Assembly: GCF_963576615.1 (NCBI RefSeq)
Contig: NC_088714.1
Location: forward strand, 45,665,772-45,729,771
DNA: 64,000 nt
Direction: 5' to 3'
Origin: Watersipora subatra
Taxonomy: Eukaryota; Bryozoa; Gymnolaemata; Cheilostomatida; Watersiporidae
Shown: positions 11,572 through 64,000 of the stretch, piece after piece
Layout of the letters: every line of letters starts with the position of its first letter
Numbering within the stretch: position 1 is the first letter of the stretch
Program-made: the position numbers and the translations under genes
The notes under the pieces: model-generated
Databases searched by the model: none
The model's input: only the letters and a program-made list of their open reading frames with translations
What the model was told of the DNA's origin: nothing

Positions 11572-11600
11572 TAAGTGTGCATGTCAAAACTATGTGGGAG

Positions 11601-11794: not shown

Positions 11795-12347
11795 GAAATG
11801 ACTCTCAAATAACTGCACTTGAGTTGCAGAAGAAGGATATGGTGTCCAAAAAGCTGGTATGTACAACCTGATCACCTCTGCTAGTTAACTACCGAGTCCA
11901 TTTTTATTCATAGCGCAATGAACGCTAGACTGGGCTGGGTATGAAAAATAAAACTTTTAATAAAACTAACACCCTTTTAGCAGCAGACTACTTTTGATCT
12001 TGGGTGTGCTTTGGGAGAAATAAGAGAAATGTTGTAAGAATAGACTGCCAGAGATCTATGCATTACCTACACCCTATTTTACTATAGAAAATCAGGTTTA
12101 CTCCTAGCATTGCCTAGCTGAATAGGCGATCTTAGAACTTTTTCTCACTGAATGTGCCACAATGCATCTGATAAGAAACTCACAAATGTCCCTTTGTATG
12201 CCTGAAGGGTAATTGCCTTTGTTGAGTGCATTTATGGAATGTTATTGTGAAAGCAGCTAGTGGTACGAGTTGAAAAGCTACACATCGTGCTGCGACTATC
12301 TGAATGAAAATAAAATTAATCTCAGGCTATAATAACCTTACTGTTAA

Positions 12348-39600: not shown

Positions 39601-41830
39601 AACTTCACACTGAAGTGTTCAGTGACGTCTGCGTCAAAACTATTTGTATTGAAACTTCATCTGGCTTTTGAGAACTAGCCTGCTAACCATCCTTTGGCTC
39701 CTTGCATTCGCTAAATACAGATAATTCCGTGAAATTAAAATTTTCCTTAGTAAATAGCATTTAAAAACTTTTTGTTTGTTTTTCTCCTCCAAACCAGACA
39801 AACATTAGGTATAAATCTATCTGCAGCATATTAAACCTCAGAGCAGTTCATTATTTTAAGTCTTATATGTACATAGAATGCAAATACCTTGATTACCTTA
39901 TTGAGAGGCCGGTTTAATTGCAATAAAAGTGATTGATGCAAATATTAAAGTTATTTCAAAGTGTTCTCAAAGTTTGTCTTGATTTGATGTAGCGGTAGAA
40001 AAACAACGTCGCAAAAATTTTGATCTGAAAGGTTTTCCATTACAAAACTAGGTGGCCTTGCCATGTTTTATGTCTGATAATGAGTAACTTAGAAATACTA
40101 AGTCAAACTTGCCAGTCTTAGTGTTGGGCATCAAATAACTGATGCATAATATTATACATTGCTTGGCAGCAAAAGAGAAAGTTCTAGGTTCATTGCTCAA
40201 TCATTGTAGCTTTTATCCAGAAGTAAATTATTATCATGCATAACAAGCTAAACAGTTTGATTATCAGTAACTATGTTCTGACAGATAAATAAAAAAATCC
40301 TATTTTCTTATTTTCTTTTTATTTATTGGGCGTTTAGCAGCCAGTATCAGATTCTGCTCAAACAAATTTGTCACGAGTTGTGCAACTAGCTGCACGGTAT
40401 TATAGTAATTTATAGAACATTCTTAAGATATGAAATTGCAATTGGGGAAAACTCAAAACTTGAAAGATTGCAGTTTACAATTCATTTTTCTATCGTTTAC
40501 GTGTTTATCAGTGCTCCAATTTCTTACTTTTTTTGCCTAAAACAGACAGATAAACAACACATTTTATTGTCTAAACTACCTCAGTTCACCTAACTACCTA
40601 ACTTTACAGTTTGACATGAGGTTTACATAAGCCTATTTTATTCTAACACAAATCTCTAGCATTTGATTGTAAACTCATTCAGTCTAAGACGGTGTCACAC
40701 TCAGTAAGGACAGGAAAAGACTGATGGTTATTTAGAACAACCAGTGAAAATTAATACTAGCTTTTCCACTTATTAAGAGCAGAGATGGCTTTTGCTATTT
40801 TGAAGATGTCTCTAATCTACTGTAAAAACTACGCTGGCAACCTGAGTGTATTTCATAACCATGAATATTCCAAAGTGTTTGTATGGTTTTTAGAAGGAAG
40901 TTTTCTTTTTTGTGGTGGAAGTTTAATTAAAAATTTACATTTTCAACAGATTAGCTAATGTGAGGTGATGTTTTCTGTCTGTAAAACAGATAGCTTTTAA
41001 CTGGAAAACAACTAGAAAAAGGTAAAATATTTATAGACATGAAACTGATAGCAAGAGGAATTCTAAGTTACATCCTTTTGACACATTGTTTATCACAATT
41101 ATAATCTCATGTTCCAAACGAGTCTTGAAAAATATTAACATGTCATGCGAGCGTATGTGCAGCTTGAGACATTTTTTAAATGCAGAATCTGGCACTTGCT
41201 GCTTTGCACCTAATAAGTAATGCCTAAATATAAGATAATCTTGTTTACACTTTTTTAACTTTACCTGTCAAAACATGTTCTATTAGAATTCATTTTATCA
41301 TTAACATAGTTATTGCTAATCAAACTGTCAAATTTGATATCATTTGTGTATTTCACAAGGTAATCAGTCTAAACATTCACTCATGCTCAATGGAGCCTTT
41401 GGAACTGCCTATATATATTCTATGCCTAAAATTGGTCATACTGTTTAGTTTGATATGCATAATGATAATAATTATGTTCTTCATGAAAATAACTACAACA
41501 AGTATTCAAATAGCTTAAAAATTCCTCTTTCGTTGGTAAACAAATTATTTTTAATAACAAAGCTTGTTTTGTGTGTGTATGTGTGCAAGCATGTATGCCG
41601 GCATTGGCATTATTTTTACAAATTTTTGTTAAACTTCACACACAAGTGTTCTGTGCCGTCTGTGCCAAAATATTTGTATTAAAACTTTATCGGGTTTCTG
41701 AGAATTAGCCTGCTACACACCCTCCTACTCCTTGCATGAAGCAAGGAGTGTGTAGCACTTTGCTCCTAATACAAATTATTTCATGAAATGAAAGTCTTCC
41801 CAGTAAATGACATTCTAAAACTCTTTGTTT
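36652..41830. repeat. Second inverted-repeat arm (right), internally duplicated
   Basis: Reverse-complement partner of 17,460-20,110. The block starting AAACCTCAGAGC-GTTCATTA appears twice (37,323 and 39,832), as does the block ending with the TTTACAT-AGCCTATTTTATTCTAACACAAAT stretch (38,715 and 40,625). The arm thus underwent a further tandem duplication of about 2.5 kb. No gene is seen. Confidence 0.78.
38106..38647. mobile_element. 542-bp hAT-type MITE
   Basis: Flanked by perfect 8-bp duplications GTCTAAAC (38,098-38,105 and 38,648-38,655). Ends are imperfect inverted repeats, CAGGGATTGCCAAAT at the left and the complement of CAGCTGTGGCCAAAT at the right (11 of 15 match), in the CAG...GCCAAA style of hAT elements. 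Sister copies at 40,569 (GTCTAAACTACCTCAG) and near 18,655 read through without it. No coding capacity. Confidence 0.87.
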
Positions 41831-42740: not shown

Positions 42741-43005
42741 AGCCGCACTATATTATGCTATATTATTTTATTATTATAGTTAATATGGTATGTTATACTA
42801 ATTTTTACCCTAGTTCAGGCCATTTTACTTTTTTTCATTTCGTGTTCATTTTAGAGAAGTGATGCTAGCATGTGATAAATATAAATGTTTACCTACAATG
42901 TTCAAGTAACGTTTACGCACCAGATATGCCTATGAAGAAATTTATGTAAAAAGTTTAAATGCAAAAAAATACATATTTCAAGTTTGGTTAAGATTTACAC
43001 ATCAC
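42741..43005. other. Partial extra copy of the 820-1330 repeat, then unique sequence
   Basis: CAGGCCATTTTACTTTTTTTC and TTAGAGAAGTG at 42,815-42,865 echo the preceding repeat. The rest, up to the tandem-duplication boundary, shows no feature. Confidence 0.5.
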
Positions 43006-43081
43006 TCTTCTAAGAAGTGTGTATTAGCCAGATAAGACTTCGTTTTACAAGAATATAAATGAGTGCCAAATAGGTACTTAA

Positions 43082-43955
43082 AGGTTGACTTGCAAAAAAA
43101 TTCACATTACAGTTATTTGATATGAAAAAGATTCACCATGTCTTACTCTGTTGTGTTGTAGGTGCAAAATATGTGGAAAGGTGATTACAAGCTCTTAAAA
43201 ACTCAAAAACGAACAGGAAATCGCAGCCACACGAGACCGTCGTAGTTTGGATTCTCTTTCCAAAACGGCTCAAATGTGATGTAGCTGTGAGAGATGGTTT
43301 TTGTTTACACTTTCTTGCAACCTTATTCGTCGAAATATTTTTACAAATATACTTCACGCATTTAATAAAACTATGTCTATTGTTCTTACGCGTCTGTTTT
43401 ATCGTCATTGTAATGCTGTCACTTTTAGCTCTGATATCTGATAACTTACCGTAAAAACTTGTTTTGTTTTTTAACCTTAGCTCGAAGGAGTACATATCAT
43501 TGTCTGATAATCATGACGAGCCTGTTGGTCACCTGTGATAATCGAAAAGTGCTGCAAAAATTATTAGCGAAGTATTGGGTCACACGATCAGATTACGACT
43601 TGATTGAATAATGTCGAAACAAAACTGTAAAGTAGCGAGCATCTATATTTAATACGGGGTCTTCGGTAAAACCCAAAGTGTTTGTCATAAACTAGTACTA
43701 CGATAAGTTTTATATTGAGCTTTGTATTGGCCTTTCAATTCACGTGAGAACGTACGTGACAAGACGATAACCAAATTTCGTGGTTACGGCATCGAAATGA
43801 AGAGATTCCAATCTATGGCGGCTTTTCATTTTTGAGCTTTTAAGAGCTTGTAGTCACATTTCCACATATTTGGCACTTACAACACAACAGAGTAAAACAT
43901 GGTAAATCTTTTGATACCAAATAACTGTAATGTGAATTTTGTTGCAAGTCAACCT
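43082..43955. mobile_element. 874-bp long-TIR MITE with TTAA ends (copy 1)
   Basis: Terminal inverted repeats of about 120 bp begin AGGTTGACTTGC and contain TCACATTACAGTTATTTG and TACTCTGTTGTGTTGTA. TTAA flanks both ends (43,078-43,081 and 43,956-43,959). TTAA points to piggyBac or Kolobok mobilisation, though a TA duplication would also fit. The 120-codon minus-strand frame at 43,133-43,495 runs through the TIR and is not a convincing gene. The element sits 76 bp inside the duplication boundary. Confidence 0.85.
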
Positions 43956-44149
43956 TTAACAATCGATAACTTGCCTTGGCGTAAAGATACAGACGCAAAC
44001 TTCTGTTAATAAGCGCATTGGGTTTACAAATTTTTGAGGTATGCCCTAGGCAACAAAATTAGTTGTTTACAAACTATATACATGTAAAAGGTACAATGGC
44101 TAGAAAAAAACTCAACGTTTTTTACTTGACAGAATATAACTATTTCGGA

Positions 44150-44290
44150 GAACAACCGCAGTTCAGTGGTAAGTACCCTGTCATAAAAGCAGAGGATCAG
44201 TAGTTTAAACCTTAGAAGGACTACTGGTGTTAGAAAGGGCATCCAGCTACAATTTCTCCTGTGCTAGCCCTCGGGAGCAAATAGTCCCAA
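44150..44290 (+). mobile_element. tRNA-derived SINE (copy 1)
   Basis: CAGTTCAGTGGTAAGT (44,159) fits a polymerase III A box and AGTTTAAACC (44,202) a decayed B box (GTTCGAACC with the CG lost), spaced as in a tRNA. This is followed by GGTGTTAGAAAGGGCATCCA, which resembles the tail shared by several mollusc SINE/LINE families (from memory). The B-box change suggests an old copy. Confidence 0.55.
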
Positions 44291-45799
44291 TGCATTCTGT
44301 ACCAAATTACATAGTTTGCCAAAAATACACCATGTAACACACCTAAATTAGAAAGGCTGGAAAAAAACAGGATAACTAAATAACATATACATATAGGCCT
44401 ACAATGTTTTTCAACAAAACATCAAGTAATAATAAGCAAACAAATAAACATATAAACATACTAACATAAACATAAACATATAAATATACTGTCTTATTGT
44501 AAATATAATATTTGTATAAGGCCTACCGGTCTACCACATAAGCCTCTGTACTGCTACATGGCTTACAAACAAAACGTCATATTCACTGTTGATGGTGGAA
44601 GGTTGACTCGACTACCTTATGACACCTCAAACGAGAAGTTATTTTTGAGTCATTTGTGCCTTTGAACTACAAGGTATGCTTTCTGAAAATCAATTTTAAA
44701 TATAAATATGTTGTTAACATTATGAATATTTCTACTATAGATAGAATGGTAGTATGTTTATTTCTGCTAGGGTATCTGACAGTGATATGAGTATTATTAC
44801 TATAGATGCAATAAAAGCACAAAACTGTTTATAATCATTACAATTTATCTTCAATTCCTAGCATAGAATATAATTGCATAGCTTTGTGAGAATCATTCTA
44901 TTCCAACTTGGATTCTCTAAGAGGAAGTTATGACAGCTGTAATGACCCTAAAAATTGTATAGTTGAGTCTGTTCAGATTTTGTTTAGAGTAACAATAAAT
45001 CTGCTTTTATAAAACTGCTTCTTTTATAGTTTCCGCTATTATGTTTAACAATGTATGGACTGCCAGTATAAGTTTGGTACTCTAACCACGTATGTAAACT
45101 ACTCTGCGTTTATCTATTCAGACTGCTAATCTTAGATAAACTTACGTGCTTACATTTCAATTCTTATTTAAAGTTTATCATTTATTTTATTTTATGCTAC
45201 CAATCATCACACCTCAAAAATATGCAGATATACATCAATTTGCATACATGTATAGTTACTTATCAAGATATACATAGCTCTGCATAATGATAAATACTTT
45301 CGGGCATCATGAATACATGCAATTGAAACATCATTGTTGTTAATCACTTTTTAATAAAACTAAAGGTATTTGACAAGGGGCTACACCAGATATTGATCAT
45401 CTCAATCTTCTGAACTTTCTCTATTCTTTGGTCAAATCAAACTTATAGGTAATCCCGACTTTGACAGTGTAGTCATGCTTTCTTAGTTGAACTTCAGCAT
45501 GTATTTTGTACCACAAGTGGTAGGATATTGTAGCTGTTAGAGATTAAATATTGGTGAAGACTTCTGGATTTTGTTTAATTAAGTGTCATAGAGATATACT
45601 TTTATGATCAATAAGTAACAATCATGTACCCAAACAATCTAACAAACCACCATTAATATTTAAATTTTCGCAAACAAGATATTATAATCTAAACATGATA
45701 TACATATTTCACACTCATACCACTAGTTGATTATGTAAATATTGCTTATCAGTGACTAAATGCTAGTTTTTGGAAGCATGACTATAGCAAAGGATTCAT
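44291..45799. other. Non-coding, no gene seen (also 55,021-56,529)
   Basis: Contains a short CATAAACATATAAACATA-like simple repeat (44,445-44,490). Otherwise no coding, TIR or repeat signal. Confidence 0.5.
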
Positions 45800-46010
45800 A
45801 ATTGTAGTATGCATTCTATAACTGTAGTATCTAATCTATATGTAGTATCTAATATACCACTGTAGTGTCTAATCTGTAACTGCAGATTTCAATTGACAAT
45901 GGTAGTTTACAATTTATAGCTGTAGCATCTGATACATAACTTGAGTATCTAATCTACAACTAGAGTATATAACCTATGCAGTCATACTTCGACTTACGAG
46001 CTTAATGCGT

Positions 46011-46133
46011 CATATGTCAATTGGCTGAGCTCATATGTCAATTGACTGAGCTCATATGTCAATTGACTGAGCTCATATGTCAATTGACTGAGCTCATATG
46101 TCAATTGACTGAGCTCATATGTCAATTTACTCA
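46011..46133. repeat. 21-bp tandem repeat inside the Tigger element (copy 1)
   Basis: About six units of CATATGTCAATTGACTGAGCT, starting just inside the left inverted repeat, with the first and last units diverged. The unit is rich in palindromic hexamers (CATATG, CAATTG, GAGCTC). The duplicate at 56,741-56,863 has the same unit number. Confidence 0.95.
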
Positions 46134-46483
46134 CATTTTTGTGCAATTTATTTATATATAAAACAATTAAATATATATTGATTGGCTTTCATACTATAAG
46201 AACAAGAAATTGTAACGGAAAGAAATGTTGGTCGTTGTCCTAACTTACCACATGCTTTCAAAAAGCAACAAATAAAAAATAATGCAAAGAAATATGATTA
46301 ATTAAAATGTAAAATAAAATACATACATTTGCAGCTAACGTTAGCATTTGCCAGAAAGGGAGAGATTAGATATCTTTCATTACAACATTTGACTTTGATA
46401 AAATTGGATTCTGATGCACCAACTTTTATTTTAAACTTAGTGTAATTAAAATTTCTTAGGCATTCATAGTTTTAAATTTCTTC

Positions 46484-46687
46484 TCACGGCTTAGCTAATC
46501 TTACCTTTTTTTTGCCCTCACGATCAGCCGGTCGTTTTAAGAAAAACCTATCCAAAGAAGTTTGCCTTTGTTGTCCTTTCAACATGTTGCGATAAGGACG
46601 AACACAGATGTCGTCACAAAGGGCTAATGCACGAGCACTACCCAACTTGTCTGAATGTATATTTTTTATAGCCTTGATAGATAGCAC
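46484..46687 (-). pseudogene. Tigger transposase C-terminal remnant (copy 1)
   Basis: GSARALALCDDICVRPYRNM and QQRQTSLDRFF resemble the C-terminal tail of Tigger proteins (ALxxLDDV..., then KQTSI/LxxFF). Upstream on the same strand, LSDEETDHVLDRR followed by a stop belongs to the same tail. The central DDE domain is missing between this and 46,825. The same frame is at 57,214-57,417. Confidence 0.7.
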
Positions 46688-46824
46688 TGACCTTTTCCCA
46701 TAGCATCATTTCAATTATGCTGTCGCTGGCCAATCGTTTGTCTTCTATCCAAAACATGATCAGTCTCTTCATCAGAAAGCATGCAAATCGCTGCGCCGCT
46801 TAGAAACTATGGTTAGTTTGCAAA

Positions 46825-46998
46825 CTAAATGCCCTGAATATAATCCTTTTGTTTGATAATTGTGGATGTATTTCTGTCATACTGCTGAGCTGGCTCAATC
46901 ATGCATACAAATTTCATAGATTTTTCAATAATTTCACATTTTTTATCAGTTGTAATCATTCGTTTTTTCTTTGAATTATCCTTCATTGTCCCTTTCAT
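46825..46998 (-). pseudogene. Tigger transposase N-terminal HTH remnant (copy 1)
   Basis: A 57-codon frame from ATG 46,998 to TAG. The segment KKKRMITTDKKCEIIEKSMK followed by AQQYDRNTSTIIKQKDYI matches the first helix-turn-helix (psq/CENP-B N-terminal) of Tigger/pogo transposases, where STI-xILK is characteristic. It stops where the catalytic region should follow. The same frame is at 57,555-57,728. Confidence 0.75.
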
Positions 46999-47400
46999 GG
47001 TTAACTTTCAGTCTATGTACTGTACTTTTATTCACATATTTCTGCACTGAAAAGGGCGCACAAAAAACACGGTGCAAAAGAATAATCTGAGCAGTTGAAA
47101 AATACAGAGTGATGCTGTTCTCATAAAACACCTCTGAAATAATTGGCCGTTGACTCGCGTGTTTGTATTTCAAACATGGCTCGTATGTTAATGCTAAAAT
47201 TTGCTTAAAAGCTTGATTGTACCTCAAGTTTCTTGTATGTTGGGGCACTCCTAAGTTGAAGTATTACTGTAGTTGTAGGTTAGCTAGTATTTATAATTGT
47301 AGTACCTACATGTGATATAAAGTTGTGGTGTTGAATCAGTAACTACATGATCTATTCTATAACTGCAGTATTTAATCTTTAAACCATTGTCTAATTTATA

Positions 47401-48636
47401 TAATCTCTAGTTTATACACAATAAAATAAAATACAATGCCGTGCCATGCCATGTTTGCAACACATTATTCATAGCATTGATGTTAAGCTGCATTGTAGCA
47501 GTTCTACCCTTTTGCTTAAGTGTCTAACAACTTCTTAGCACCATGAAGAAACAAAGCAGCAGATAAGCTAGCTTGGTGGTTCTATTTAGGAAGTTCCTTC
47601 ACTTATCTCTGGTTGGACACATTCAATTTCTCTGTTTACTTTGTTGAGCTGTTATTATTATAAAGTAGTCTAAAGAAATATGCACACGTGGATGGTCTCA
47701 TCTATACAACAGCTATGCCTGACTTCATCTTAACATTGCCTATTTTTGCTCTGCAGTGTCTGTTTTAATCTCAAAGAAAAATATTAGCCATATAGCACAC
47801 TGTGCAGTATATGTACTAATGTTAATATTGTTATTTATAATGACAGAATAAATTTTGTAAGAAAGAAGTTAAAATGCAGCAGTAGTTTATCATATTATTC
47901 TCTCTTAATATACTGATTGCTATATGATCATCTCTGTTGCTCCTAGCTAACGGTCAGCTTGAACAGCAACTTTATAAAAGCATTCAATCACCCTTCTGCT
48001 CAGTTTCGTTCAGCCTGGTTTGATCTCAACAATGAGAATTACATGATTGGGTGTTTGCTTTATTCGTGAACCAATCTTTTGCTCACATATGAATAAAAAA
48101 TTGCAAAAGTATTTTAGACTGTTGACTAGATTGATTAGTCCACTTCTCCTCTTGAAGGCGACCTGGTAGGAGTAAAAAAGTTTCTGAAAATAGTTGACAC
48201 TATTTAGCAACCCTATATCCATTTAAATTCTAGTTCACATTATTATTGGAGATTTGTTTATTTGTCGCACACACAACTGGATTCAAAAAGATCACTCGAA
48301 CCTCTTCATTCAATCAATCCCGTAGTGCTAGCTAGAGCATTAGCTCAGCTTTGCAAATTTGCTTGTTGTTTTCTCATCTGCCAGGATCTTCAATAATGGG
48401 CAAGTGTACTTACTATTTTGTACTATTTTTGTTTTCATAGAGACCAATATGGAGCTGGTTGATTCAATAAACCATAGAAATGCATTTAGTTCCAGCTTGT
48501 ATAAGTTGGTTAAATGATATTCTAGTAGTACTCTATACATATAAAAACTAAATCGTTATTATATTCTGCAATTCTCAGTTCGTAAATATAGTGCACGGTT
48601 TTGCTCTTGAAATTTGTTTTGTGACGAGTTCAAATT
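47401..48636. other. Non-coding region upstream of the sulfotransferase (also 58,131-59,366)
   Basis: No conserved open frame: the minus-strand frames at 48,010-48,222 and 48,340-48,540 show no domain. If the gene's first exon is the one at 48,682, the promoter would lie here. TATAAAAAC at 48,539-48,547 is a possible but unproven TATA element. Confidence 0.45.
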
Positions 48637-48681
48637 TTGTATTACACTTTAAATTGCAATTACATAGTCCTTGACTATCAG

Positions 48682-51600
48682 ATGTTTTATCTTCCAGGCT
48701 TGAAGAGATGGTTTCTGCGTGTGAGAGCTGTTGATCTTTTGCTTTCTGTTCTTACACTGCTTTTCATCACTGGAATCCTAGTAATGAATACACGACTTTC
48801 TGCTAAAAACTCTCACAGGCAGCTGTCACCAGTTCTTCAAATGGCTAATGTCGAAGGTGTAAATGTTGCCCCGCTAGCAGGAAAAAGGGTCAGACGCAAT
48901 GTTGATGATGGAACTTGGGTATATATAAAACGACTTTTATGAATTGTGCAGGCATATTTACTAAGATATATACAATTATTTGCTCGTTTATCTTTACTTT
49001 GGTGAAAAAACCATTTTCAAGGACTTATAAGTTAATCAGAGTTCAAGTTTTTTGTTGGACTCAGTGCTCAGGTCATTAAATCTTTTTGGTGTAATAAAAC
49101 TTTTAAAAGTATATAACGCATATTTTTAAATCTTAAAATAAGTGCAGCAGTATTTTAATATTGGTTTCACCAAAATAGTACTACACAGTTTTAACTTGCC
49201 CTAAATTTAAAAATAGTATGATAGATTATATTGACATTACTATCATTAAAATTGTGGCAATTTAAAGTTATTATTCGCTTCAGAGAATCGGCCTGTGCTA
49301 AATAAATATTAATGTAATAACAAAAACATCAGCTGACACATGCCACAATTTGACATTTCAGCTGACACATGCCACAATTTGACATTTCAGCTGACACATG
49401 CCACAATTTGACACTTCAGCTGACACATGCCACAAGTTGACATTTCAGCTGACACATACTACAATTTGTTAAAAGACATTTAGATTCTGTAGCATATGCC
49501 AACAGATTGTAAAGATGAGTGATAAAACACGAATATAATGTTACCTTAAATGATTAATCAATATTATTAATGACACAATTGTGTAGAAAAATTTAAAAAC
49601 TATGATAAAAGAATGAGCCTTAAACAACTATTAGAATAGATTTTAAAACAATGATGAGCCTTTGTGTGAAAAAAAAAACTAATTTTTAGGAGGTGCCAGC
49701 TGAGGCATATCCAATCGCGCTCAGTGTCACAGGTATATGCGAGGAAGCCATCGTTCTGTCTGAGTTTCCAAATGGCACTTGTTTCAGCTACTGCACAGCT
49801 TCATCATGTGGCAGTGATGCATTGGCCAGCATAGAAAGTGGAGAGTAAGTGCAATAAGTATAAATAAGGGTAACAATATATTTTTCCCTAGTTTTCATCA
49901 TAGAGGCAGTTAAATATTCAGTCCTGGTTTTTGGCTATACTTGCTGCTACAGCATGTGGCAAATGGTTGACCTGTTATGACTTTCTACAGAGTAAATGTC
50001 TGTGCATCTTTTCAAAACTTTGGGCCCATTTCCTTAGCAAAGATTATTTCAGTTGTAAAATTGGCCCTTTCTGAAAGTCGTTAGAATTCTATTTTAAATT
50101 AAATATATCAACCAAGACCTGTGTCTTTAAGTTAGCATTCAAAATGGCAACCTAAAGGCTGCTTGTAAATAATTTGACAGTACTTAATTTATAAGTAATT
50201 ATTATTTCTATGAATTGCTGTTTTATATTTATGCAGTTCGGAGCTGGTGTGCACAGCACGAATCATGCAGTTGGGATTTCAGCGAAGTGGTACAGGTGAA
50301 ATCTCTCGATGGATCAAACAGCATCCTGATGTTACAGCCAGATATGCTGATATGTTTTTAAACGACGCTGGACAGCCGGAATTTGGTTAGTGGAACCTAG
50401 CTATCAGCCATACTTTAATTATTAGATTCACTTAAGATTTGGGTAAAGGTAGACATGAGCACACACTTTTTATTAATAAAAAAAGTAATAGTAATAACAG
50501 TAAAAATTGCCGGAACATTAATAGTCATAGTAACAATAATAAAGTAATAACAATAACAAGAGCAATATTAACAGAAATAACCATAATAGTAGTAGAAGTA
50601 GCAATAGTAATAATTGCTAAATATAGTAGGAGTTGCAGAAGTAGAGTGAAATATCAGAAAACATTTGGAGAACTTACACATGATTTACACTTACACTTGA
50701 TTTTACATTTACACTCATTTGGTTACTTACCCATATAGAGTTGTGCACTGTTTTCCTCATTCTTCTGTACCTCAGACATATAATTTCCTCTTTCCAGCTT
50801 TTTCACTACATCCAAGACTCTAACCACACATTTCGTTCACAACTATTCCCTATAATTTGCCCATTTTCTACTATCAAGCATTGAGAGCTCTGTTTTAAAT
50901 ACTGATTCAAGTTTCTCATCTTCTGCTCTTGACTTCTTAACCTCTTGACTTTCTAACAAATGATTTTAGCATTTTTGCTCTTGCCTTATGACAACTACAT
51001 GGTAACCACTGATTGCAGTCTTTTACAGTCAAGTGATGATAGGTAAAGACTATTGACCGACCTTTTTCTTCCCCTTTCCATTTTTGACAGTTATAATATA
51101 ACTGGTGATTTTAATCTTTTACCCTCAGGTCTAATCCTTGACCCTCAGGCCTTAGCTGATGTGAAAGTCTTACAAAATATGCTCTATTTATTGTCTATTT
51201 ATTGTTTATTGGTCTTATTTTACTCTCATCATCTCTGCTTCCTTTGTTTTCAGTCCAAACTATCCTGAAATCCAAAAAACTGTAATTGTCAATTTTTCAT
51301 TTTTTTTTATTAAAAAAAAAAGAAAAATGCTGCTGAAAATAGTTACTTTATACCTTTTTGATTTGAGCAACTATTTTATATTTCCATAATTTTTCTTAAC
51401 AATTTTGCTTTCCTCCTCTTACCGTTATTGTTTAGCACCAATTCTAGTAAGCCAATTTTTATTTTGGGAGATAAGTAAACTAATTATTTCAGCGCAATCT
51501 ATTTTATGTAGTTTCAACCAATCAAAGTTGAGCAAGTCGTTCACCTTACCCGTTTTAGTCTCACCATCAAGGAAACCAAACATGGTGAACAGTAGTATTG

Positions 51601-53618
51601 TTAGTTAGCTTACAAATTGCTACTACAGTTTTGATGTGCAGTTGCTTGTTTTAAGCTACTCTTGGAATATCTTTATTTTCATTGATCACTTTTATCTGAC
51701 TCTTGTTCTTAAAGAATTAATAAAATTCTTTTCAATTTTCTTTCTTTGGTCACTCGTGCAAGGTTGAGTCTATCATTGAGCAATTATGACTCATTTCTTC
51801 ATAGTCCCTTTCAACATAGTCCCTTTCTTCATAGTCCCTTTCAACATAGTCCCTTTCTTCATAGTCCCTTTCAACATATTCATAGTTGTATGTAAAATAC
51901 CTGCTCACCATTTTCCAGTGAACTAGAATTTGAATTTTGAGTATTGATGTCCATACCATAGCTGTAGCCTACGCTGGAATAGATTCAAGCTTGAAAATTT
52001 TAATCCGGTCATTGCAATGAATTCATGCGTTAACGGTTTTCAAATGCATATTTGCTAAATAGTTTTGTACTCGTTTATTGCTTATAAAATGTTTAAGTTA
52101 CCAGAATATTTGACTATTGCAACAGGAAAATTAACTAAGTCTAGGATGCAGTAGAGTAACCGTGCTATTATTGACTATTAGAAATAAAAGCTAGCAATTT
52201 GTATAACGTTCTCCTCAATCTGGCGATATTGATTTACACTAATATTGTATCCACTTACATCAGCGCCACTTCTTTAGTAAGCATGGTTAAAGTGGTTTTC
52301 ATGTTCCCTCATAACGAATCTATGATATCTGTAGTCTATTACACAAAAATTCTACGATGTGTACTGTCTAATTATGAATACTGTTTACAGTATGTATAGT
52401 CTATGGTAATTAGAGTCCATAATTTATGTAGCCTATGTTATGTTTGGTCTACAGTATGTATAGCCTATGATAATTAGAGTCTATAATTTATGTAGTCTAT
52501 ATTATGTTTAGTCTATAGTATGTATAGTTTATGATAATTAGAGTCTATAATTTATGTAGCCCATGTTATGTTTAGTCTACAGTATGTATAGCCTATGATA
52601 ATTAGAGTCTATAATTTATGTAGTCTATATTATGTTTAGTCTATAGTATGTATAGTTTATGATAATTAGAGTCTATAATTTATGTAGTCTATATTATGTT
52701 TAGTCTATAGTATGTATAGTTTATGATAATTAGAGTCTATAATTTATGTAGCCCATGTTATGTTTAGTCTACAGTATGTATAGCCTATGATAATTAGAGT
52801 CTATAATTTATGTAGTCTATGTTATGTTTAGTCTATAGTATGTATAGTTTATGATAATTAGAGTCTATAATTTATGTAGCCCATGTTATGTTTAGTCTAC
52901 AGTATGTATAGCTTATGATAATTAGAGTCTATAATTTATGTAGTCTATATTATGTTTAGTCTATAGTATGTATAGTTTATGATAATTAGAGTCTATAATT
53001 TATGTAGTCTATATTATGTTTGGTCTACAGCATGTATAGCCTATGATAATTAGAGTCTATAATTTATGTAGTCTATGTTATGTTTAGTCTATAGTATGTA
53101 TAGCCAATGATAACTAGAGTCTATAATTTATGTAGTCTATATTATGTTTGGTCTACAGCATGTATAGCCTATGATAAATAGAGTCTATAATTTATGTAGT
53201 CTATGTTATGTTTAGTCTATAGTATGTATAGTTTATGATAACTAGAGTCTATAATTTATGTAGTCTATGTTATGTTTGGTCTACAGCATGTATAGCCTAT
53301 GATAATTAGAGTCTATAATTTAGGTAGTCTATGTTATGTTTAGTCTATAGTATCTATAGTTTAGGATAGATATAGTTTATAATCTGCTTAATGTGCATTG
53401 TGTGAGATGTTCAAATATTACTAATTGTGAAATTTATTATTTTTCATTAATCTAAACATTATGTTTTGCTGTCTGTTGCAGATTTTTGTCCAATTGAACA
53501 AATACGTGACACAACATCTCCTGGATACTTTGAGTCTTACCCTTTGAGCTCTGTTGGAACTGTGGGAAGTCAAAAGAATTATTATGTGCACTGTGAGCAT
53601 TGTCTCACAACTGGTTTG
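48682..53618 (+). CDS. CHST15-like carbohydrate sulfotransferase, exons 1-4 (copy 1)
   Basis: Four exons join in phase: 48,682-48,918, 49,690-49,844, 50,237-50,385 and 53,482-53,618, with donors GTATAT, GTAAGT, GTTAGT and GTAAGC and AG acceptors. They give 226 residues. Basic LKRWFLRVR then the hydrophobic VDLLLSVLTLLFITGILVM make a type II Golgi anchor (~residues 7-35). A stem with NGTC glycosylation site and clustered cysteines follows. MQLGFQRSGTGEISRWIKQH (~residues 142-161) is the 5'-phosphosulfate-binding loop of PAPS-dependent sulfotransferases. Exon 4 ends in phase 0. The C-terminal exons (3' loop, EDY) are absent before copy 2 begins at 53,736, so copy 1 is a 5' half-gene. ATG 48,682 is chosen for its topology; ATG 48,637 is in frame, and CTTCCAG at 48,697 could instead be an acceptor for an earlier exon. 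Substrate is unknown. Confidence 0.75.
49330..49468. repeat. 29-bp tandem repeat in intron 1 (also 60,060-60,198)
   Basis: Nearly five units of CAGCTGACACATGCCACAAT-TTGACATTT, the last one diverged. Both duplicated units carry the same number. Confidence 0.95.
50460..50630. repeat. AAT/AAC-rich simple repeat in intron 3 (also 61,190-61,360)
   Basis: GTAATAGTAATAACAGTA-type degenerate trinucleotide sequence. The open frame through it is N/I/V-rich and not a gene. Confidence 0.8.
51795..51878. repeat. 30-bp tandem repeat in intron 3 (also 62,524-62,607)
   Basis: Nearly three units of TTCTTCATAGTCCC-TTTCAACATAGTCCCT. The complement translates as an artificial DYVERDYEER repeat. Confidence 0.9.
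52390..53381. repeat. 64-bp minisatellite in intron 3, ~15 units (copy 1)
   Basis: Units run GTATGTATAG to the next GTATGTATAG in 64 bp, containing ATAATTAGAGTCTATAATTT and ATGTAG. Variants alternate (CCTATG with TCTACA, TTTATG with TCTATA), giving a partial 128-bp higher-order pattern. The array ends about 100 bp before exon 4. Confidence 0.96.
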
Positions 53619-53811
53619 GTAAGCTTCAAGTATTTTGATCATGATAACATATAAACAGACCAGTGAGTTATTCATAGTATTTGATCTGCAGTACTTTACA
53701 TAATTTTATGAAAATAACATAATTCTTATTCTTATTCTTCTAAGAAGTGTGTATTAGCCAGATAAGACTTCTTTTTACAAGAATATAAATGAGTGCCAAA
53801 TAGGTACTTAA

Positions 53812-54685
53812 AGGTTGACTTGCAAAAAAATTCACATTACAGTTATTTGATATGAAAAAGATTCACCATGTCTTACTCTGTTGTGTTGTAGGTGCAAAAT
53901 ATGTGGAAAGGTGATTACAAGCTCTTAAAAACACAAAAACGAACAGGAAATCGCAGCCACACGAGACCGTCGTAGTTTGGATTCTCTTTCCAAAACGGCT
54001 CAAATGTGATGTAGCTGTGAGAGATGGTTTTTGTTTACACTTTCTTGCAACCTTATTCGTCGAAATATTTTTACAAATATACTTCACGCATTTAATAAAA
54101 CTATGTCTATTGTTCTTACGCGTCTGTTTTATCGTCATTGTAATGCTGTCACTTTTAGCTCTGATATCTGATAACTTACCGTAAAAACTCGTTTTGTTTT
54201 TTAACCTTAGCTCGAAGGAGTACATATCATTGTCTGATAATCATGACGAGCCTGTTGGTCACCTGTGATAATCGAAAAGTGCTGCAAAAATTATTAGCGA
54301 AGTATTGGGTCACACGATCAGATTACGACTTGATTGAATAATGTCGAAACAAAACTGTAAAGTAGCGAGCATCTATATTTAATACGGGGTCTTCGGTAAA
54401 ACCCAAAGTGTTTGTCATAAACTAGTACTACGATAAGTTTTATATTGAGCTTTGTATTGGCCTTTCAATTCACGTGAGAACGTACGTGACAAGACGATAA
54501 CCAAATTTCGTGGTTACGGCATCGAAATGAAGAGATTCCAATCTACGGCGGCTTTTCATTTTTGAGCTTTTAAGAGCTTGTAGTCACATTTCCACATATT
54601 TGGCACTTACAACACAACAGAGTAAGACATGGTAAATCTTTTGACACCAAATAACTGTAATGTGAATTTTGTTGCAAGTCAACCT
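53812..54685. mobile_element. 874-bp long-TIR MITE with TTAA ends (copy 2)
   Basis: Duplicate of the element at 43,082 with about five single-base differences, copied as part of the larger unit and not a separate insertion. Confidence 0.85.
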
Positions 54686-54879
54686 TTAACAATCGATAAC
54701 TTGCCTTGGCGTAAAGATACAGACGCAAACTTCTGTTAATAAGCGCATTGGGTTTACAAATTTTTGAGGTATGCCCTAGGCAACAAAATTAGTTGTTTAC
54801 AAACTATATACATGTAAAAGGTACAATGGCTAGAAAAAAACTCAACGTTTTTTACTTGACAGAATATAACTATTTCGGA

Positions 54880-55020
54880 GAACAACCGCAGTTCAGTGGT
54901 AAGTACCCTGTCATAAAAGCAGAGGATCAGTAGTTTAAACCTTAGAAGGACTACTGGTGTTAGAAAGGGCATCCAGCTACAATTTCTCCTGTGCTAGCCC
55001 TCGGGAGCAAATAGTCCCAA
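54880..55020 (+). mobile_element. tRNA-derived SINE (copy 2)
   Basis: Identical by eye to 44,150-44,290 and carried by the tandem duplication. Confidence 0.55.
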
Positions 55021-56708
55021 TGCATTCTGTACCAAATTACATAGTTTGCCAAAAATACACCATGTAACACACCTAAATTAGAAAGGCTGGAAAAAAACAG
55101 GATAACTAAATAACATATACATATAGGCCTACAATGTTTTTCAACAAAACATCAAGTAATAATAAGCAAACAAATAAACATATAAACATACTAACATAAA
55201 CATAAACATATAAATATACTGTCTTATTGTAAATATAATATTTGTATAAGGCCTACCGGTCTACCACATAAGCCTCTGTACTGCTACATGGCTTACAAAC
55301 AAAACGTCATATTCACTGTTGATGGTGGAAGGTTGACTCGACTACCTTATGACACCTCAAACGAGAAGTTATTTTTGAGTCATTTGTGCCTTTGAACTAC
55401 AAGGTATGCTTTCTGAAAATCAATTTTAAATATAAATATGTTGTTAACATTATGAATATTTCTACTATAGATAGAATGGTAGTATGTTTATTTCTGCTAG
55501 GGTATCTGACAGTGATATGAGTATTATTACTATAGATGCAATAAAAGCACAAAACTGTTTATAATCATTACAATTTATCTTCAATTCCTAGCATAGAATA
55601 TAATTGCATAGCTTTGTGAGAATCATTCTATTCCAACTTGGATTCTCTAAGAGGAAGTTATGACAGCTGTAATGACCCTAAAAATTGTATAGTTGAGTCT
55701 GTTCAGATTTTGTTTAGAGTAACAATAAATCTGCTTTTATAAAACTGCTTCTTTTATAGTTTCCGCTATTATGTTTAACAATGTATGGACTGCCAGTATA
55801 AGTTTGGTACTCTAACCACGTATGTAAACTACTCTGCGTTTATCTATTCAGACTGCTAATCTTAGATAAACTTACGTGCTTACATTTCAATTCTTATTTA
55901 AAGTTTATCATTTATTTTATTTTATGCTACCAATCATCACACCTCAAAAATATGCAGATATACATCAATTTGCATACATGTATAGTTACTTATCAAGATA
56001 TACATAGCTCTGCATAATGATAAATACTTTCGGGCATCATGAATACATGCAATTGAAACATCATTGTTGTTAATCACTTTTTAATAAAACTAAAGGTATT
56101 TGACAAGGGGCTACACCAGATATTGATCATCTCAATCTTCTGAACTTTCTCTATTCTTTGGTCAAATCAAACTTATAGGTAATCCCGACTTTGACAGTGT
56201 AGTCATGCTTTCTTAGTTGAACTTCAGCATGTATTTTGTACCACAAGTGGTAGGATATTGTAGCTGTTAGAGATTAAATATTGGTGAAGACTTCTGGATT
56301 TTGTTTAATTAAGTGTCATAGAGATATACTTTTATGATCAATAAGTAACAATCATGTACCCAAACAATCTAACAAACCACCATTAATATTTAAATTTTCG
56401 CAAACAAGATATTATAATCTAAACATGATATACATATTTCACACTCATACCACTAGTTGATTATGTAAATATTGCTTATCAGTGACTAAATGCTAGTTTT
56501 TGGAAGCATGACTATAGCAAAGGATTCATAATTGTAGTATGCATTCTATAACTGTAGTATCTAATCTATATGTAGTATCTAATATACCACTGTAGTGTCT
56601 AATCTGTAACTGCAGATTTCAATTGACAATGGTAGTTTACAATTTATAGCTGTAGCATCTGATACATAACTTGAGTATCTAATCTACAACTAGAGTATAT
56701 AACCTATG

Positions 56709-57999
56709 CAGTCATACTTCGACTTACGAGCTTAATGCGTCATATGTCAATTGGCTGAGCTCATATGTCAATTGACTGAGCTCATATGTCAATTGACTGA
56801 GCTCATATGTCAATTGACTGAGCTCATATGTCAATTGACTGAGCTCATATGTCAATTTACTCACATTTTTGTGCAATTTATTTATATATAAAACAATTAA
56901 ATATATATTGATTGGCTTTCATACTATAAGAACAAGAAATTGTAACGGAAAGAAATGTTGGTCGTTGTCCTAACTTACCACATGCTTTCAAAAAGCAACA
57001 AATAAAAAATAATGCAAAGAAATATGATTAATTAAAATGTAAAATAAAATACATACATTTGCAGCTAACGTTAGCATTTGCCAGAAAGGGAGAGATTAGA
57101 TATCTTTCATTACAACATTTGACTTTGATAAAATTGGATTCTGATGCACCAACTTTTATTTTAAACTTAGTGTAATTAAAATTTCTTAGGCATTCATAGT
57201 TTTAAATTTCTTCTCACGGCTTAGCTAATCTTACCTTTTTTTTGCCCTCACGATCAGCCGGTCGTTTTAAGAAAAACCTATCCAAAGAAGTTTGCCTTTG
57301 TTGTCCTTTCAACATGTTGCGATAAGGACGAACACAGATGTCGTCACAAAGGGCTAATGCACGAGCACTACCCAACTTGTCTGAATGTATATTTTTTATA
57401 GCCTTGATAGATAGCACTGACCTTTTCCCATAGCATCATTTCAATTATGCTGTCGCTGGCCAATCGTTTGTCTTCTATCCAAAACATGATCAGTCTCTTC
57501 ATCAGAAAGCATGCAAATCGCTGCGCCGCTTAGAAACTATGGTTAGTTTGCAAACTAAATGCCCTGAATATAATCCTTTTGTTTGATAATTGTGGATGTA
57601 TTTCTGTCATACTGCTGAGCTGGCTCAATCATGCATACAAATTTCATAGATTTTTCAATAATTTCACATTTTTTATCAGTTGTAATCATTCGTTTTTTCT
57701 TTGAATTATCCTTCATTGTCCCTTTCATGGTTAACTTTCAGTCTATGTACTGTACTTTTATTCACATATTTCTGCACTGAAAAGGGCGCACAAAAAACAC
57801 GGTGCAAAAGAATAATCTGAGCAGTTGAAAAATACAGAGTGATGCTGTTCTCATAAAACACCTCTGAAATAATTGGCCGTTGACTCGCGTGTTTGTATTT
57901 CAAACATGGCTCGTATGTTAATGCTAAAATTTGCTTAAAAGCTTGATTGTACCTCAAGTTTCTTGTATGTTGGGGCACTCCTAAGTTGAAGTATTACTG
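56709..57999 (-). mobile_element. Internally deleted Tigger/pogo-type element (copy 2)
   Basis: Identical by eye to 45,979-47,269, including transposase remnants at 57,214-57,417 and 57,555-57,728 (-) and the 21-bp array. Duplicated with the host unit. Confidence 0.82.
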
Positions 58000-59411
58000 T
58001 AGTTGTAGGTTAGCTAGTATTTATAATTGTAGTACCTACATGTGATATAAAGTTGTGGTGTTGAATCAGTAACTACATGATCTATTCTATAACTGCAGTA
58101 TTTAATCTTTAAACCATTGTCTAATTTATATAATCTCTAGTTTATACACAATAAAATAAAATACAATGCCGTGCCATGCCATGTTTGCAACACATTATTC
58201 ATAGCATTGATGTTAAGCTGCATTGTAGCAGTTCTACCCTTTTGCTTAAGTGTCTAACAACTTCTTAGCACCATGAAGAAACAAAGCAGCAGATAAGCTA
58301 GCTTGGTGGTTCTATTTAGGAAGTTCCTTCACTTATCTCTGGTTGGACACATTCAATTTCTCTGTTTACTTTGTTGAGCTGTTATTATTATAAAGTAGTC
58401 TAAAGAAATATGCACACGTGGATGGTCTCATCTATACAACAGCTATGCCTGACTTCATCTTAACATTGCCTATTTTTGCTCTGCAGTGTCTGTTTTAATC
58501 TCAAAGAAAAATATTAGCCATATAGCACACTGTGCAGTATATGTACTAATGTTAATATTGTTATTTATAATGACAGAATAAATTTTGTAAGAAAGAAGTT
58601 AAAATGCAGCAGTAGTTTATCATATTATTCTCTCTTAATATACTGATTGCTATATGATCATCTCTGTTGCTCCTAGCTAACGGTCAGCTTGAACAGCAAC
58701 TTTATAAAAGCATTCAATCACCCTTCTGCTCAGTTTCGTTCAGCCTGGTTTGATCTCAACAATGAGAATTACATGATTGGGTGTTTGCTTTATTCGTGAA
58801 CCAATCTTTTGCTCACATATGAATAAAAAATTGCAAAAGTATTTTAGACTGTTGACTAGATTGATTAGTCCACTTCTCCTCTTGAAGGCGACCTGGTAGG
58901 AGTAAAAAAGTTTCTGAAAATAGTTGACACTATTTAGCAACCCTATATCCATTTAAATTCTAGTTCACATTATTATTGGAGATTTGTTTATTTGTCGCAC
59001 ACACAACTGGATTCAAAAAGATCACTCGAACCTCTTCATTCAATCAATCCCGTAGTGCTAGCTAGAGCATTAGCTCAGCTTTGCAAATTTGCTTGTTGTT
59101 TTCTCATCTGCCAGGATCTTCAATAATGGGCAAGTGTACTTACTATTTTGTACTATTTTTGTTTTCATAGAGACCAATATGGAGCTGGTTGATTCAATAA
59201 ACCATAGAAATGCATTTAGTTCCAGCTTGTATAAGTTGGTTAAATGATATTCTAGTAGTACTCTATACATATAAAAACTAAATCGTTATTATATTCTGCA
59301 ATTCTCAGTTCGTAAATATAGTGCACGGTTTTGCTCTTGAAATTTGTTTTGTGACGAGTTCAAATTTTGTATTACACTTTAAATTGCAATTACATAGTCC
59401 TTGACTATCAG

Positions 59412-62400
59412 ATGTTTTATCTTCCAGGCTTGAAGAGATGGTTTCTGCGTGTGAGAGCTGTTGATCTTTTGCTTTCTGTTCTTACACTGCTTTTCATCAC
59501 TGGAATCCTAGTAATGAATACACGACTTTCTGCTAAAAACTCTCACAGGCAGCTGTCACCAGTTCTTCAAATGGCTAATGTCGAAGGTGTAAATGTTGCC
59601 CCGCTAGCAGGAAAAAGGGTCAGACGCAATGTTGATGATGGAACTTGGGTATATATAAAACGACTTTTATGAATTGTGCAGGCATATTTACTAAGATATA
59701 TACAATTATTTGCTCGTTTATCTTTACTTTGGTGAAAAAACCATTTTCAAGGACTTATAAGTTAATCAGAGTTCAAGTTTTTTGTTGGACTCAGTGCTCA
59801 GGTCATTAAATCTTTTTGGTGTAATAAAACTTTTAAAAGTATATAACGCATATTTTTAAATCTTAAAATAAGTGCAGCAGTATTTTAATATTGGTTTCAC
59901 CAAAATAGTACTACACAGTTTTAACTTGCCCTAAATTTAAAAATAGTATGATAGATTATATTGACATTACTATCATTAAAATTGTGGCAATTTAAAGTTA
60001 TTATTCGCTTCAGAGAATCGGCCTGTGCTAAATAAATATTAATGTAATAACAAAAACATCAGCTGACACATGCCACAATTTGACATTTCAGCTGACACAT
60101 GCCACAATTTGACATTTCAGCTGACACATGCCACAATTTGACACTTCAGCTGACACATGCCACAAGTTGACATTTCAGCTGACACATACTACAATTTGTT
60201 AAAAGACATTTAGATTCTGTAGCATATGCCAACAGATTGTAAAGATGAGTGATAAAACACGAATATAATGTTACCTTAAATGATTAATCAATATTATTAA
60301 TGACACAATTGTGTAGAAAAATTTAAAAACTATGATAAAAGAATGAGCCTTAAACAACTATTAGAATAGATTTTAAAACAATGATGAGCCTTTGTGTGAA
60401 AAAAAAAACTAATTTTTAGGAGGTGCCAGCTGAGGCATATCCAATCGCGCTCAGTGTCACAGGTATATGCGAGGAAGCCATCGTTCTGTCTGAGTTTCCA
60501 AATGGCACTTGTTTCAGCTACTGCACAGCTTCATCATGTGGCAGTGATGCATTGGCCAGCATAGAAAGTGGAGAGTAAGTGCAATAAGTATAAATAAGGG
60601 TAACAATATATTTTTCCCTAGTTTTCATCATAGAGGCAGTTAAATATTCAGTCCTGGTTTTTGGCTATACTTGCTGCTACAGCATGTGGCAAATGGTTGA
60701 CCTGTTATGACTTTCTACAGAGTAAATGTCTGTGCATCTTTTCAAAACTTTGGGCCCATTTCCTTAGCAAAGATTATTTCAGTTGTAAAATTGGCCCTTT
60801 CTGAAAGTCGTTAGAATTCTATTTTAAATTAAATATATCAACCAAGACCTGTGTCTTTAAGTTAGCATTCAAAATGGCAACCTAAAGGCTGCTTGTAAAT
60901 AATTTGACAGTACTTAATTTATAAGTAATTATTATTTCTATGAATTGCTGTTTTATATTTATGCAGTTCGGAGCTGGTGTGCACAGCACGAATCATGCAG
61001 TTGGGATTTCAGCGAAGTGGTACAGGTGAAATCTCTCGATGGATCAAACAGCATCCTGATGTTACAGCCAGATATGCTGATATGTTTTTAAACGACGCTG
61101 GACAGCCGGAATTTGGTTAGTGGAACCTAGCTATCAGCCATACTTTAATTATTAGATTCACTTAAGATTTGGGTAAAGGTAGACATGAGCACACACTTTT
61201 TATTAATAAAAAAAGTAATAGTAATAACAGTAAAAATTGCCGGAACATTAATAGTCATAGTAACAATAATAAAGTAATAACAATAACAAGAGCAATATTA
61301 ACAGAAATAACCATAATAGTAGTAGAAGTAGCAATAGTAATAATTGCTAGATATAGTAGGAGTTGCGGAAGTAGAGTGAAATATCAGAAAACATTTGGAG
61401 AACTTACACACGATTTACACTTACACTTGAATTTACATTTACACTCATTTGGTTACTTACCCATATAGAGTTGTGCACTGTTTTCCTCATTCTTCTGTAC
61501 CTCAGACATATAATTTCCTCTTTCCAGCTTTTTCACTACATCCAAGACTTTAACCACACATTTCGTTCACAACTATTCCCTATAATTTGCCCATTTTCTA
61601 CTATCAAGCATTGAGAGCTCTGTTTTAAATACTGATTCAAGTTTCTCATCTTCTGCTCTTGACTTCTTAACCTCTTGACTTTCTAACAAATGATTTTAGC
61701 ATTTTTGCTCTTGCCTTATGACAACTACATGGTAACCACTGATTGCAGTCTTTTACAGTCAAGTGATGATAGGTAAAGACTATTGACCGACCTTTTTCTT
61801 CCCCTTTCCATTTTTGACAGTTATAATATAACTGGTGATTTTAATCTTTTACCCTCAGGTCTAATCCTTGACCCTCAGGCCTTAGCTGATGTGAAAGTCT
61901 TACAAAATATGCTCTATTTATTGTCTATTTATTGTTTATTGGTCTTATTTCACTCTCATCATCTCTGCTTCCTTTGTTTTCAGTCAAAACTATCCTGAAA
62001 TCCAAAAAACTATAATTGTCAATTTTTCATGTTTTTTATTAAAAAAAAAAGAAAAATGCTGCTGAAAATAGTTACTTTATACCTTTTTGATTTGAGCAAC
62101 TATTTTATATTTCCATAATTTTTCTTAACAATTTTGCTTTCCTCCTCTTACCGTTATTGTTTAGCACCAATTCTAGTAAGCCAATTTTTATTTTGGGAGA
62201 TAAGTGAACTAATTATTTCAGCGCAATCTATTTTATGTAGTTTCAACCAATCAAAGTTGAGCAAGTCGTTCACCTTACCCGTTTTAGTCTCACCATCAAG
62301 GAAACCAAACATGGTGAACAGTAGTATTGTTAGTTAGCTTACAAATTGCTACTACAGTTTTGATGTGCAGTTGCTTGTTTTAAGCTACTCTTGGAATATC

Positions 62401-63962
62401 TTTATTTTCATTGATCACTTTTATCTGACTCTTGTTCTTAAAGAATTAATAAAATTCTTTTCAATTTTCTTTCTTTGGTCACTCGTGCAAGGTTGAGTCT
62501 ATCATTGAGCAATTATGACTCATTTCTTCATAGTCCCTTTCAACATAGTCCCTTTCTTCATAGTCCCTTTCAACATAGTCCCTTTCTTCATAGTCCCTTT
62601 CAACATATTCATAGTTGTATGTAAAATACCTGCTCACCATTTTCCAGTGAACTAGAATTTGAATTTTGAGTATTGATGTCCATACCATAGCTGTAGCCTA
62701 CGCTGGAATAGATTCAAGCTTGAAAATTTTAATCCGGTCATTGCAATGAATTCATGCGTTAACGGTTTTCAAATGCATATTTGCTAAATAGTTTTGTACT
62801 CGTTTATTGCTTATAAAATGTTTAAGTTACCAGAATATTTGACTAATGCAACAGGAAAATTAACTAAGTCTAGGATGCAGTAGAGTAACCGTGCTATTAT
62901 TGACTATTAGAAATAAAAGCTAGCAATTTGTATAACGTTCTCCTCAATCTGGCGATATTGATTTACACTAATATTGTATCCACTTACATCAGCGCCACTT
63001 CTTTAGTAAGCATGGTTAAAGTGGTTTTCATGTTCCCTCATAACGAATCTATGATATCTGTAGTCTATTACACAAAAATTCTACGATGTGTACTGTCTAA
63101 TTATGAATACTGTTTACAGTATGTATAGTCTATGGTAATTAGAGTCTATAATTTATGTAGTCTATATTATGTTTAGTCTATAGTATGTATAGTTTATGAT
63201 AATTAGAGTCTATAATTTATGTAGCCCATGTTATGTTTAGTCTACAGTATGTATAGCCTATGATAATTAGAGTCTATAATTTATGTAGTCTATGTTATGT
63301 TTAGTCTATAGTATGTATAGTTTATGATAATTAGAGTCTATAATTTATGTAGCCCATGTTATGTTTAGTCTACAGTATGTATAGCCTATGATAATTAGAG
63401 TCTATAATTTATGTAGTCTATATTATGTTTAGTCTATAGTATGTATAGTTTATGATAATTAGAGTCTATAATTTATGTAGTCTATATTATGTTTGGTCTA
63501 CAGCATGTATAGCCTATGATAATTAGAGTCTATAATTTATGTAGTCTATGTTATGTTTAGTCTATAGTATGTATAGTTTATGATAACTAGAGTCTATAAT
63601 TTATGTAGTCTATGTTATGTTTGGTCTACAGCATGTATAGCCTATGATAATTAGAGTCTATAATTTAGGTAGTCTATGTTATGTTTAGTCTATAGTATCT
63701 ATATTTATGATAGATATAGTTTATAATCTGCTTAATGTGCATTGTGTGAGATGTTCAAATATTACTAATTGTGAAATTTATTATTTTTCATTAATCTAAA
63801 CATTATGTTTTGCTGTCTGTTGCAGATTTTTGTCCAATTGAACAAATACGTGACACAACATCTCCTGGATACTTTGAGTCTTACCCTTTGAGCTCTGTTG
63901 GAACTGTGGGAAGTCAAAAGAATTATTATGTGCACTGTGAGCATTGTCTCACAACTGGTTTG
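59412..63962 (+). CDS. CHST15-like carbohydrate sulfotransferase, exons 1-4 (copy 2, partial)
   Basis: Exons 59,412-59,648, 60,420-60,574, 60,967-61,115 and 63,826-63,962, with coding sequence identical by eye to copy 1. It has the same membrane anchor, cysteine-rich stem and GFQRSGTGE 5'-phosphosulfate loop. The last intron is 385 bp shorter than in copy 1 because of the 64-bp array. The gene continues beyond the window, where the 3'-phosphate loop and the EDY/C-terminal exons should follow, like those seen at 35,080-35,304 (-) and 2,305-2,538 (+). This is the copy more likely to be complete. The same start uncertainty applies (59,367 or an upstream exon). Confidence 0.75.
63119..63735. repeat. 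64-bp minisatellite in intron 3, ~9 units (copy 2)
   Basis: Same unit and variant alternation as 52,390-53,381, but about six units (384-385 bp) shorter, the only large difference between the two duplicated units. Confidence 0.96.
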
Positions 63963-64000
63963 GTAAGCTTTAAGTATTTTGATCATGATAACATATAAAC

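Follow-up and report, generated by a model that had tools for sequence, protein, structure and literature searches.

In Drosophila yakuba, partial tandem duplications can take up the 5' portion of a gene and set it beside other sequence, and many polymorphic cases have been examined together with RNA-seq (PMC5460883). Experimental work on helq-1 mutants of Caenorhabditis elegans describes polymerase-theta duplications that form direct repeats of ~100 bp to 10 kb, with joins that carry microhomology and occasional templated insertions; these duplications have a median length of ~1 kb and are rare in wild-type worms (PMC8654963). Adjacent, near-identical copies with allele-level divergence and a partial gene also arise as false heterotype duplications in genome assemblies (PMC9516828). 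Here we describe a 64,000-nucleotide stretch of the genome of the bryozoan Watersipora subatra (contig NC_088714.1, positions 45,665,772 to 45,729,771 of the forward strand; hereafter the window), in which a segment of ~10.7 kb carrying the first four exons of a predicted sulfotransferase-like gene is repeated.

The locus resembles the D. yakuba duplications in that the 5' part of a gene was captured and set beside other sequence, but it is one case in one assembly, read from sequence alone. Like the worm duplications, it combines a direct repeat (10.7 kb) with a short insert (9 bp), whereas here we infer the route from one join. It shares with false heterotype duplications the adjacent near-identical copies, the allele-level divergence and the partial gene, and differs from them in having no gap and in carrying an insert at the join that derives from neither flank. 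The expansion of cytosolic sulfotransferases in molluscs (PMC5700196) was considered for comparison and set aside as a different kind. Most likely the feature is real and of a well-known, ordinary kind, in which part of a gene belonging to a clustered family has recently been duplicated in tandem. The explanation that best covers the evidence as a whole, and which we regard as quite probable, is a recent and real tandem duplication, closed by end joining, within an older cluster of sulfotransferase-like genes. It would illustrate, cleanly and at a young stage, that incomplete duplications can enlarge a gene cluster, and its value lies in breakpoints that are both resolved to the base, in paralogs that reveal the old flanks, and in the intact gene adjoining the extra 5' half.

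Self-alignment and repeat analysis of the locus gave the following features.

43,006–53,726, + strand: copy 1 of the duplicated unit (upstream flank and exons 1–4), from self-alignment; its left flank is ancestral, with paralog P4 aligning through 43,006
53,727–53,735, + strand: 9-bp insert TATTCTTAT that joins the copies and occurs in neither ancestral flank
53,736–64,000 within the window, + strand: copy 2 of the unit, from self-alignment, which runs to 64,070 and then into exons 5–7 of the intact gene
52,389–53,383, + strand: 64-bp minisatellite in intron 3 of copy 1, 15.5 units, from repeat analysis
63,118–63,727, + strand: 64-bp minisatellite of copy 2, 9.5 units

The repeat is direct and adjoining, and copy 2 ends at 64,070, 70 bp past the window, with copy 2 leaving the alignment at 64,071. 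A first-pass annotation of this DNA had given the unit as 43,006–53,735; the repeat is real and its copies do adjoin, but the last 9 bp of that interval (53,727–53,735) lie outside it. The same annotation had counted about twenty differences between the copies, in agreement with the 18 substitutions and one indel that we find at an offset of 10,730, which amount to 0.19% over ~9.7 kb with the minisatellite excluded. The minisatellite, which the first-pass annotation had passed over, holds further differences, which were left out of that count, and it is longer by 6 units in copy 1.

Differences between the copies are confined to 43,042–43,915 and to positions from 50,620 onward, and the 6,704 bp between them (43,916–50,619) are identical. 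When the 18 events in 43,006–52,388 were shuffled uniformly, a gap as long as the observed 6,705 bp was reached in none of 200,000 shuffles, which rejects a uniform spread of differences. Coding exons 1–4 are identical in both copies. We polarised 19 substituted sites by hand tally, one of which (53,364) lies at the edge of the minisatellite, using paralogs or relatives of a transposable element within the unit (described below) as outgroups; 5 look derived in copy 1, 9 look derived in copy 2 and no ancestral state could be assigned for the remaining 5, with three sites resting on a single outgroup or a majority. Derived changes in both copies do not separate a duplication from a pair of alleles.

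The edges of the unit lie at 43,005/43,006, upstream of the gene, and at 64,070/64,071, in intron 4 and 26 bp before exon 5, such that both breakpoints are non-coding. At the right edge, the alignment of copy 2 continues past 64,070 at each of the six paralogous places compared (five outgroup stretches), and copy 1, when aligned to these six places, breaks off between 53,675 and 53,729. At the left edge, a single paralog, P4, aligns through 43,006 (42,868–43,081). These alignments through the edges indicate that the old left flank lies next to copy 1 and the old right flank next to copy 2. The join reads ...CATAATTCT, then the insert TATTCTTAT, then TCTTCTAAGAAG. A search of both strands found TATTCTTAT neither in 42,900–43,100 nor in 64,000–64,200, and it is likewise absent from the aligned paralogs P1–P4 at the right edge and from P4 at the left edge; the 9 bp that close copy 1 ahead of the join have no counterpart in copy 2 or in P1–P4. 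Seven of the nine inserted bases are matched, in reverse complement, at 43,049, in an AT-rich region, and the insert, which is not clearly templated, may possibly have had a templated origin. No long homology was seen between the two flanks at the join, which instead carries the short insert. Signs of a tandem duplication made by end joining include two near-identical adjacent copies with one novel adjacency, ancestral outer edges, and microhomology or a short insert at a join that lacks long homology; each of these is found here, the last as an insert.

Based on these features, we propose that, if the assembly is correct at this locus, ~10.7 kb were recently duplicated in tandem within the older cluster, and that the ends of the unit were rejoined by end joining, perhaps through repair of the polymerase-theta type, which would have left the 9-bp insert at the join. 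Copy 2 together with the unduplicated exons 5–7 would then form the intact gene, and copy 1 would be an extra 5' half. The 6.7-kb identical stretch may reflect gene conversion between the copies or their shared recent origin. A transposon was considered as the cause and rejected. A miniature inverted-repeat transposable element (MITE)-like element lies ~70 bp inside the unit, at neither breakpoint, and is present in both copies, as follows.

43,077–43,959, strand unspecified: MITE-like element close to the start of copy 1, which has terminal inverted repeats and a TTAA at each end
53,807–54,689, strand unspecified: the same MITE-like element in copy 2

Because both copies carry the element, it predates the duplication. 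Paralog P4 has a TTAA site without the element at the equivalent place, and at least 37 further matches to the element occur in the genome (92–95% over ~850 bp or more).

The first-pass annotation had left two readings of the repeat open, a recent tandem duplication that created a 5' half-gene and an artefact in which two haplotypes were assembled end to end. In the second reading, the copies would be two alleles of one locus, and each chromosome would have a single unit. Several points weigh against a real, end-joined duplication. A divergence of 0.19% and a minisatellite of variable length could be shown by two alleles, which would also fit the derived changes in both copies and the clumping of differences into two blocks that flank the 6.7-kb identical tract. 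The insert is part of a TTCTTA-like run and might be an error of the consensus introduced by joining falsely at this point, and the role given to polymerase theta would be deduced from a single join. Heterotype false duplications were the major kind in the older assemblies examined by Ko et al., and their newer assemblies retained some false duplications, many on the same scaffold (PMC9516828); those on the same scaffold mostly come with a gap and are sometimes gapless (Ko et al. 2022, PMC9516828).

Other observations speak against the artefact. The evidence comes from one assembly (784 Mb, 239 contigs), in which the window lies on a 66.3-Mb contig (C7), and there is not a single N in 213,928 assembled bases that include the window; an assembly gap between the copies, which is the usual though not obligatory sign of a false haplotype duplication, is thus absent. 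The copies are not allelic up to the join, where a 9-bp insert found in neither flank intervenes, with a consensus error there being possible. Our genome searches score the best candidates, and their counts are lower bounds. Among the matches listed for a query of 48,400–52,300, two places are near-identical, both in the window, and the others are at most 86% similar, which indicates that no leftover haplotig is seen among them; a 2,101-bp query spanning the junction has one full-length match among those listed. A self-comparison of 214 kb found no other direct repeat longer than 1 kb at more than 94%, short-unit arrays aside, which suggests that the neighbourhood bears no further sign of such assembly errors. 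Given the 9-bp insert, the gap-free 66-Mb contig and the two near-identical copies listed, a duplication appears favoured over a haplotype artefact, which we judge unlikely. That the duplication is real, be it fixed or heterozygous, seems highly probable. A tandem copy carried by one chromosome only, which is a sub-case of this explanation with overlapping odds, is consistent with the low divergence, and one assembly cannot tell fixed from heterozygous; we consider it possible, at somewhat less than an even chance.

To describe what was duplicated, we read exon borders from GT-AG signals, open frames and paralogs, and the resulting gene model is a prediction.

48,682–48,888, + strand: copy 1 exon 1, 69 codons, frame kept in paralogs
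49,690–49,844, + strand: copy 1 exon 2
50,237–50,385, + strand: copy 1 exon 3, carrying the 5'-phosphosulfate-binding (5'-PSB)-like GFQRSGTGEISRWIKQHP stretch
53,482–53,618, + strand: copy 1 exon 4, ending in phase 0, donor GTAAGC
59,412–59,618, + strand: copy 2 exon 1, same sequence as in copy 1
60,420–60,574, + strand: copy 2 exon 2, same sequence as in copy 1
60,967–61,115, + strand: copy 2 exon 3, same sequence as in copy 1
63,826–63,962, + strand: copy 2 exon 4, same sequence as in copy 1
64,097–64,231, 65,203–65,427 and 66,696–66,926, + strand: copy 2 exons 5, 6 and 7, past the window

With the sequence beyond the window, copy 2 is an intact gene of 7 exons that encodes 412 amino acids, and for each of exons 5, 6 and 7 the neighbourhood contains one or more matching paralogous stretches. 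Copy 1 has exons 1–4 only. The first-pass annotation had recognised that it lacks the C-terminal exons, which belong to copy 2 at 64,097–66,926, and its statement that copy 1 ends 117 bp after exon 4 holds if one includes the 9 inserted bp, with exon 4 ending at 53,618.

That annotation had also called the gene a sulfotransferase, an identity supported by the full 7-exon protein, which matches the Pfam family Sulfotransfer_1 at E=0.0013 (18.7 bits against a cut-off of 22) and Sulfotransfer_3 at E=0.004 (17.9 bits against a cut-off of 27); both matches fall under the curated cut-offs and are suggestive. The 216-residue half encoded by exons 1–4 had no Pfam match at E values of 1 or below and found only unrelated weak matches in the PDB, which indicates that the sulfotransferase label needed the downstream exons; exon 3 alone matched Sulfotransfer_3 at E=0.077. 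The PDB list for the full protein contains five distinct sequences, among them three of heparan sulfate 3-O-sulfotransferase 3A1 (HS3ST3A1) at E values of 0.037–0.043, one sulfotransferase at 1.2 and an unrelated protease at 0.1. The protein resembles HS3ST3A1 (PDB 6xkg, 1t8u, 1t8t) in four short, weak, collinear blocks. Two of these involve GFQRSGTGE in exon 3 and KFIITIKNPTDRAIAEY in exon 5, which align collinearly and each weakly to HS3ST3A1. By eye, the 412-residue protein also contains a hydrophobic stretch, VDLLLSVLTLLFITGILV, which is a candidate N-terminal type II membrane anchor. We take the GFQRSGTGE/GFQRSGTGEISRWIKQHP stretch to be 5'-PSB-like and KFIITIKNPTDRAIAEY to be 3'-phosphate-binding (3'-PB)-like, and the four blocks are presumably 5'-PSB-like, 3'-PB-like, GxYxxHL-like and C-terminal FFxPFN-like. 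The gene is probably a divergent Golgi-type sulfotransferase and differs from HS3ST3A1 in being too distant, at a whole-sequence E of just 0.037, for its substrate to be assigned.

Splicing offers several ways in which copy 1 could be used. Exon 4 finishes, and exons 1, 2 and 5 start, in phase 0. The frame stays open in all four splice combinations tried with exons of copy 1, two of which yield an identical protein; splicing of copy 1 into copy 2, which the first-pass annotation had suggested, would be compatible with the frame. Exons 1–4 of copy 1 joined to exons 5–7, and exon 1 of copy 1 joined to exons 2–7 of copy 2, each give exactly the 412-residue protein of copy 2. Joining exon 4 of copy 1 to exon 2 of copy 2 gives an open frame of 559 amino acids, and joining it to exon 1 of copy 2 gives one of 628. 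If intron 4 is retained, 11 residues precede a stop, which yields a 227-residue product. Likeliest, copy 1 would be a redundant second 5' end that changes little: at most, its exon 4 could be spliced to exon 5 and give the same 412-residue protein.

We also weighed whether copy 1 might be a functional new gene that encodes the 227-residue truncated protein or a longer fusion with copy 2 in which the 5'-PSB-like region is repeated. The frames for the 227-, 559- and 628-residue products are open, and 5' gene fragments in Drosophila can activate adjoining sequence (PMC5460883). However, the 3'-PB-like and C-terminal parts are missing from copy 1, and a truncated form should therefore not be an active enzyme; moreover, the coding exons are identical and thus give no sign of separate selection. 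We find this reading improbable. More speculatively, the duplication might have given the intact gene two promoters, with exon 4 of copy 1 spliced to exon 2 of copy 2 to make a newborn, exon-shuffled enzyme of 559 amino acids with a doubled 5'-PSB region, at a stage when the two copies are 99.8% identical; this strikes us as very improbable. We also considered that the main product might be a fused protein, and keep this as no more than a minor rival to a redundant second 5' end. The locus warns that copy 1 should not be annotated as a gene in its own right.

The surrounding cluster is defined here by DNA matches to 48,400–52,300, and the matches listed are a lower bound. Among them, older paralogs with 68–86% identity lie at C7:45.27–45.85 Mb on both strands, and at least three more matches lie at C7:63.91–63.94 Mb. 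The remaining listed matches, which are shorter than 200 bp, fall on C2, C4, C8 and C9 and correspond to an AT-rich stretch near 50,463–50,629; these were rejected as gene relatives. Of the steps by which the cluster grew, the duplication is the youngest that we see in the 214 kb examined. Between copy 2 and paralog P3, the ratio of nonsynonymous to synonymous divergence (dN/dS) is 0.31 (dN 0.112, dS 0.359; 214 codons of exons 1–4, first codon omitted), which suggests that the family is constrained and is silent on copy 1. Parts of two relatives lie inside the window.

2,305–2,529, + strand: exon 7 of a relative, intact-looking
35,373–33,820, − strand: exons 6–7 of an inverted relative, with an in-frame stop in exon 7

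Another tandem duplication, a small one of 698 bp at 98.6%, is located at 90,190–91,578 in window numbering, 2.3 kb upstream of exon 1 of paralog P3, and a gap-free 3.8-kb array of ~70-bp units occupies 164,715–168,502 in the same numbering.

Scans of the window for Rfam families (gathering threshold) and for tRNAs were empty. Elsewhere in the window, a copia-like long terminal repeat (LTR) element spans 4,954–11,795, with end repeats (4,954–5,147 and 11,601–11,795) that are 97.4% alike and with split frames that resemble gag, integrase and reverse transcriptase. Inside it, a 621-codon frame at 8,183–10,045 is weakly similar to a hAT-type transposase, with matches to a Spin-doc zinc finger (E=6.5e-9) and a hAT dimerisation region (E=0.00098). 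Inverted multi-kb blocks at 36,653–41,343 and 17,491–20,070, which are 81–93% similar, are probably repeats.

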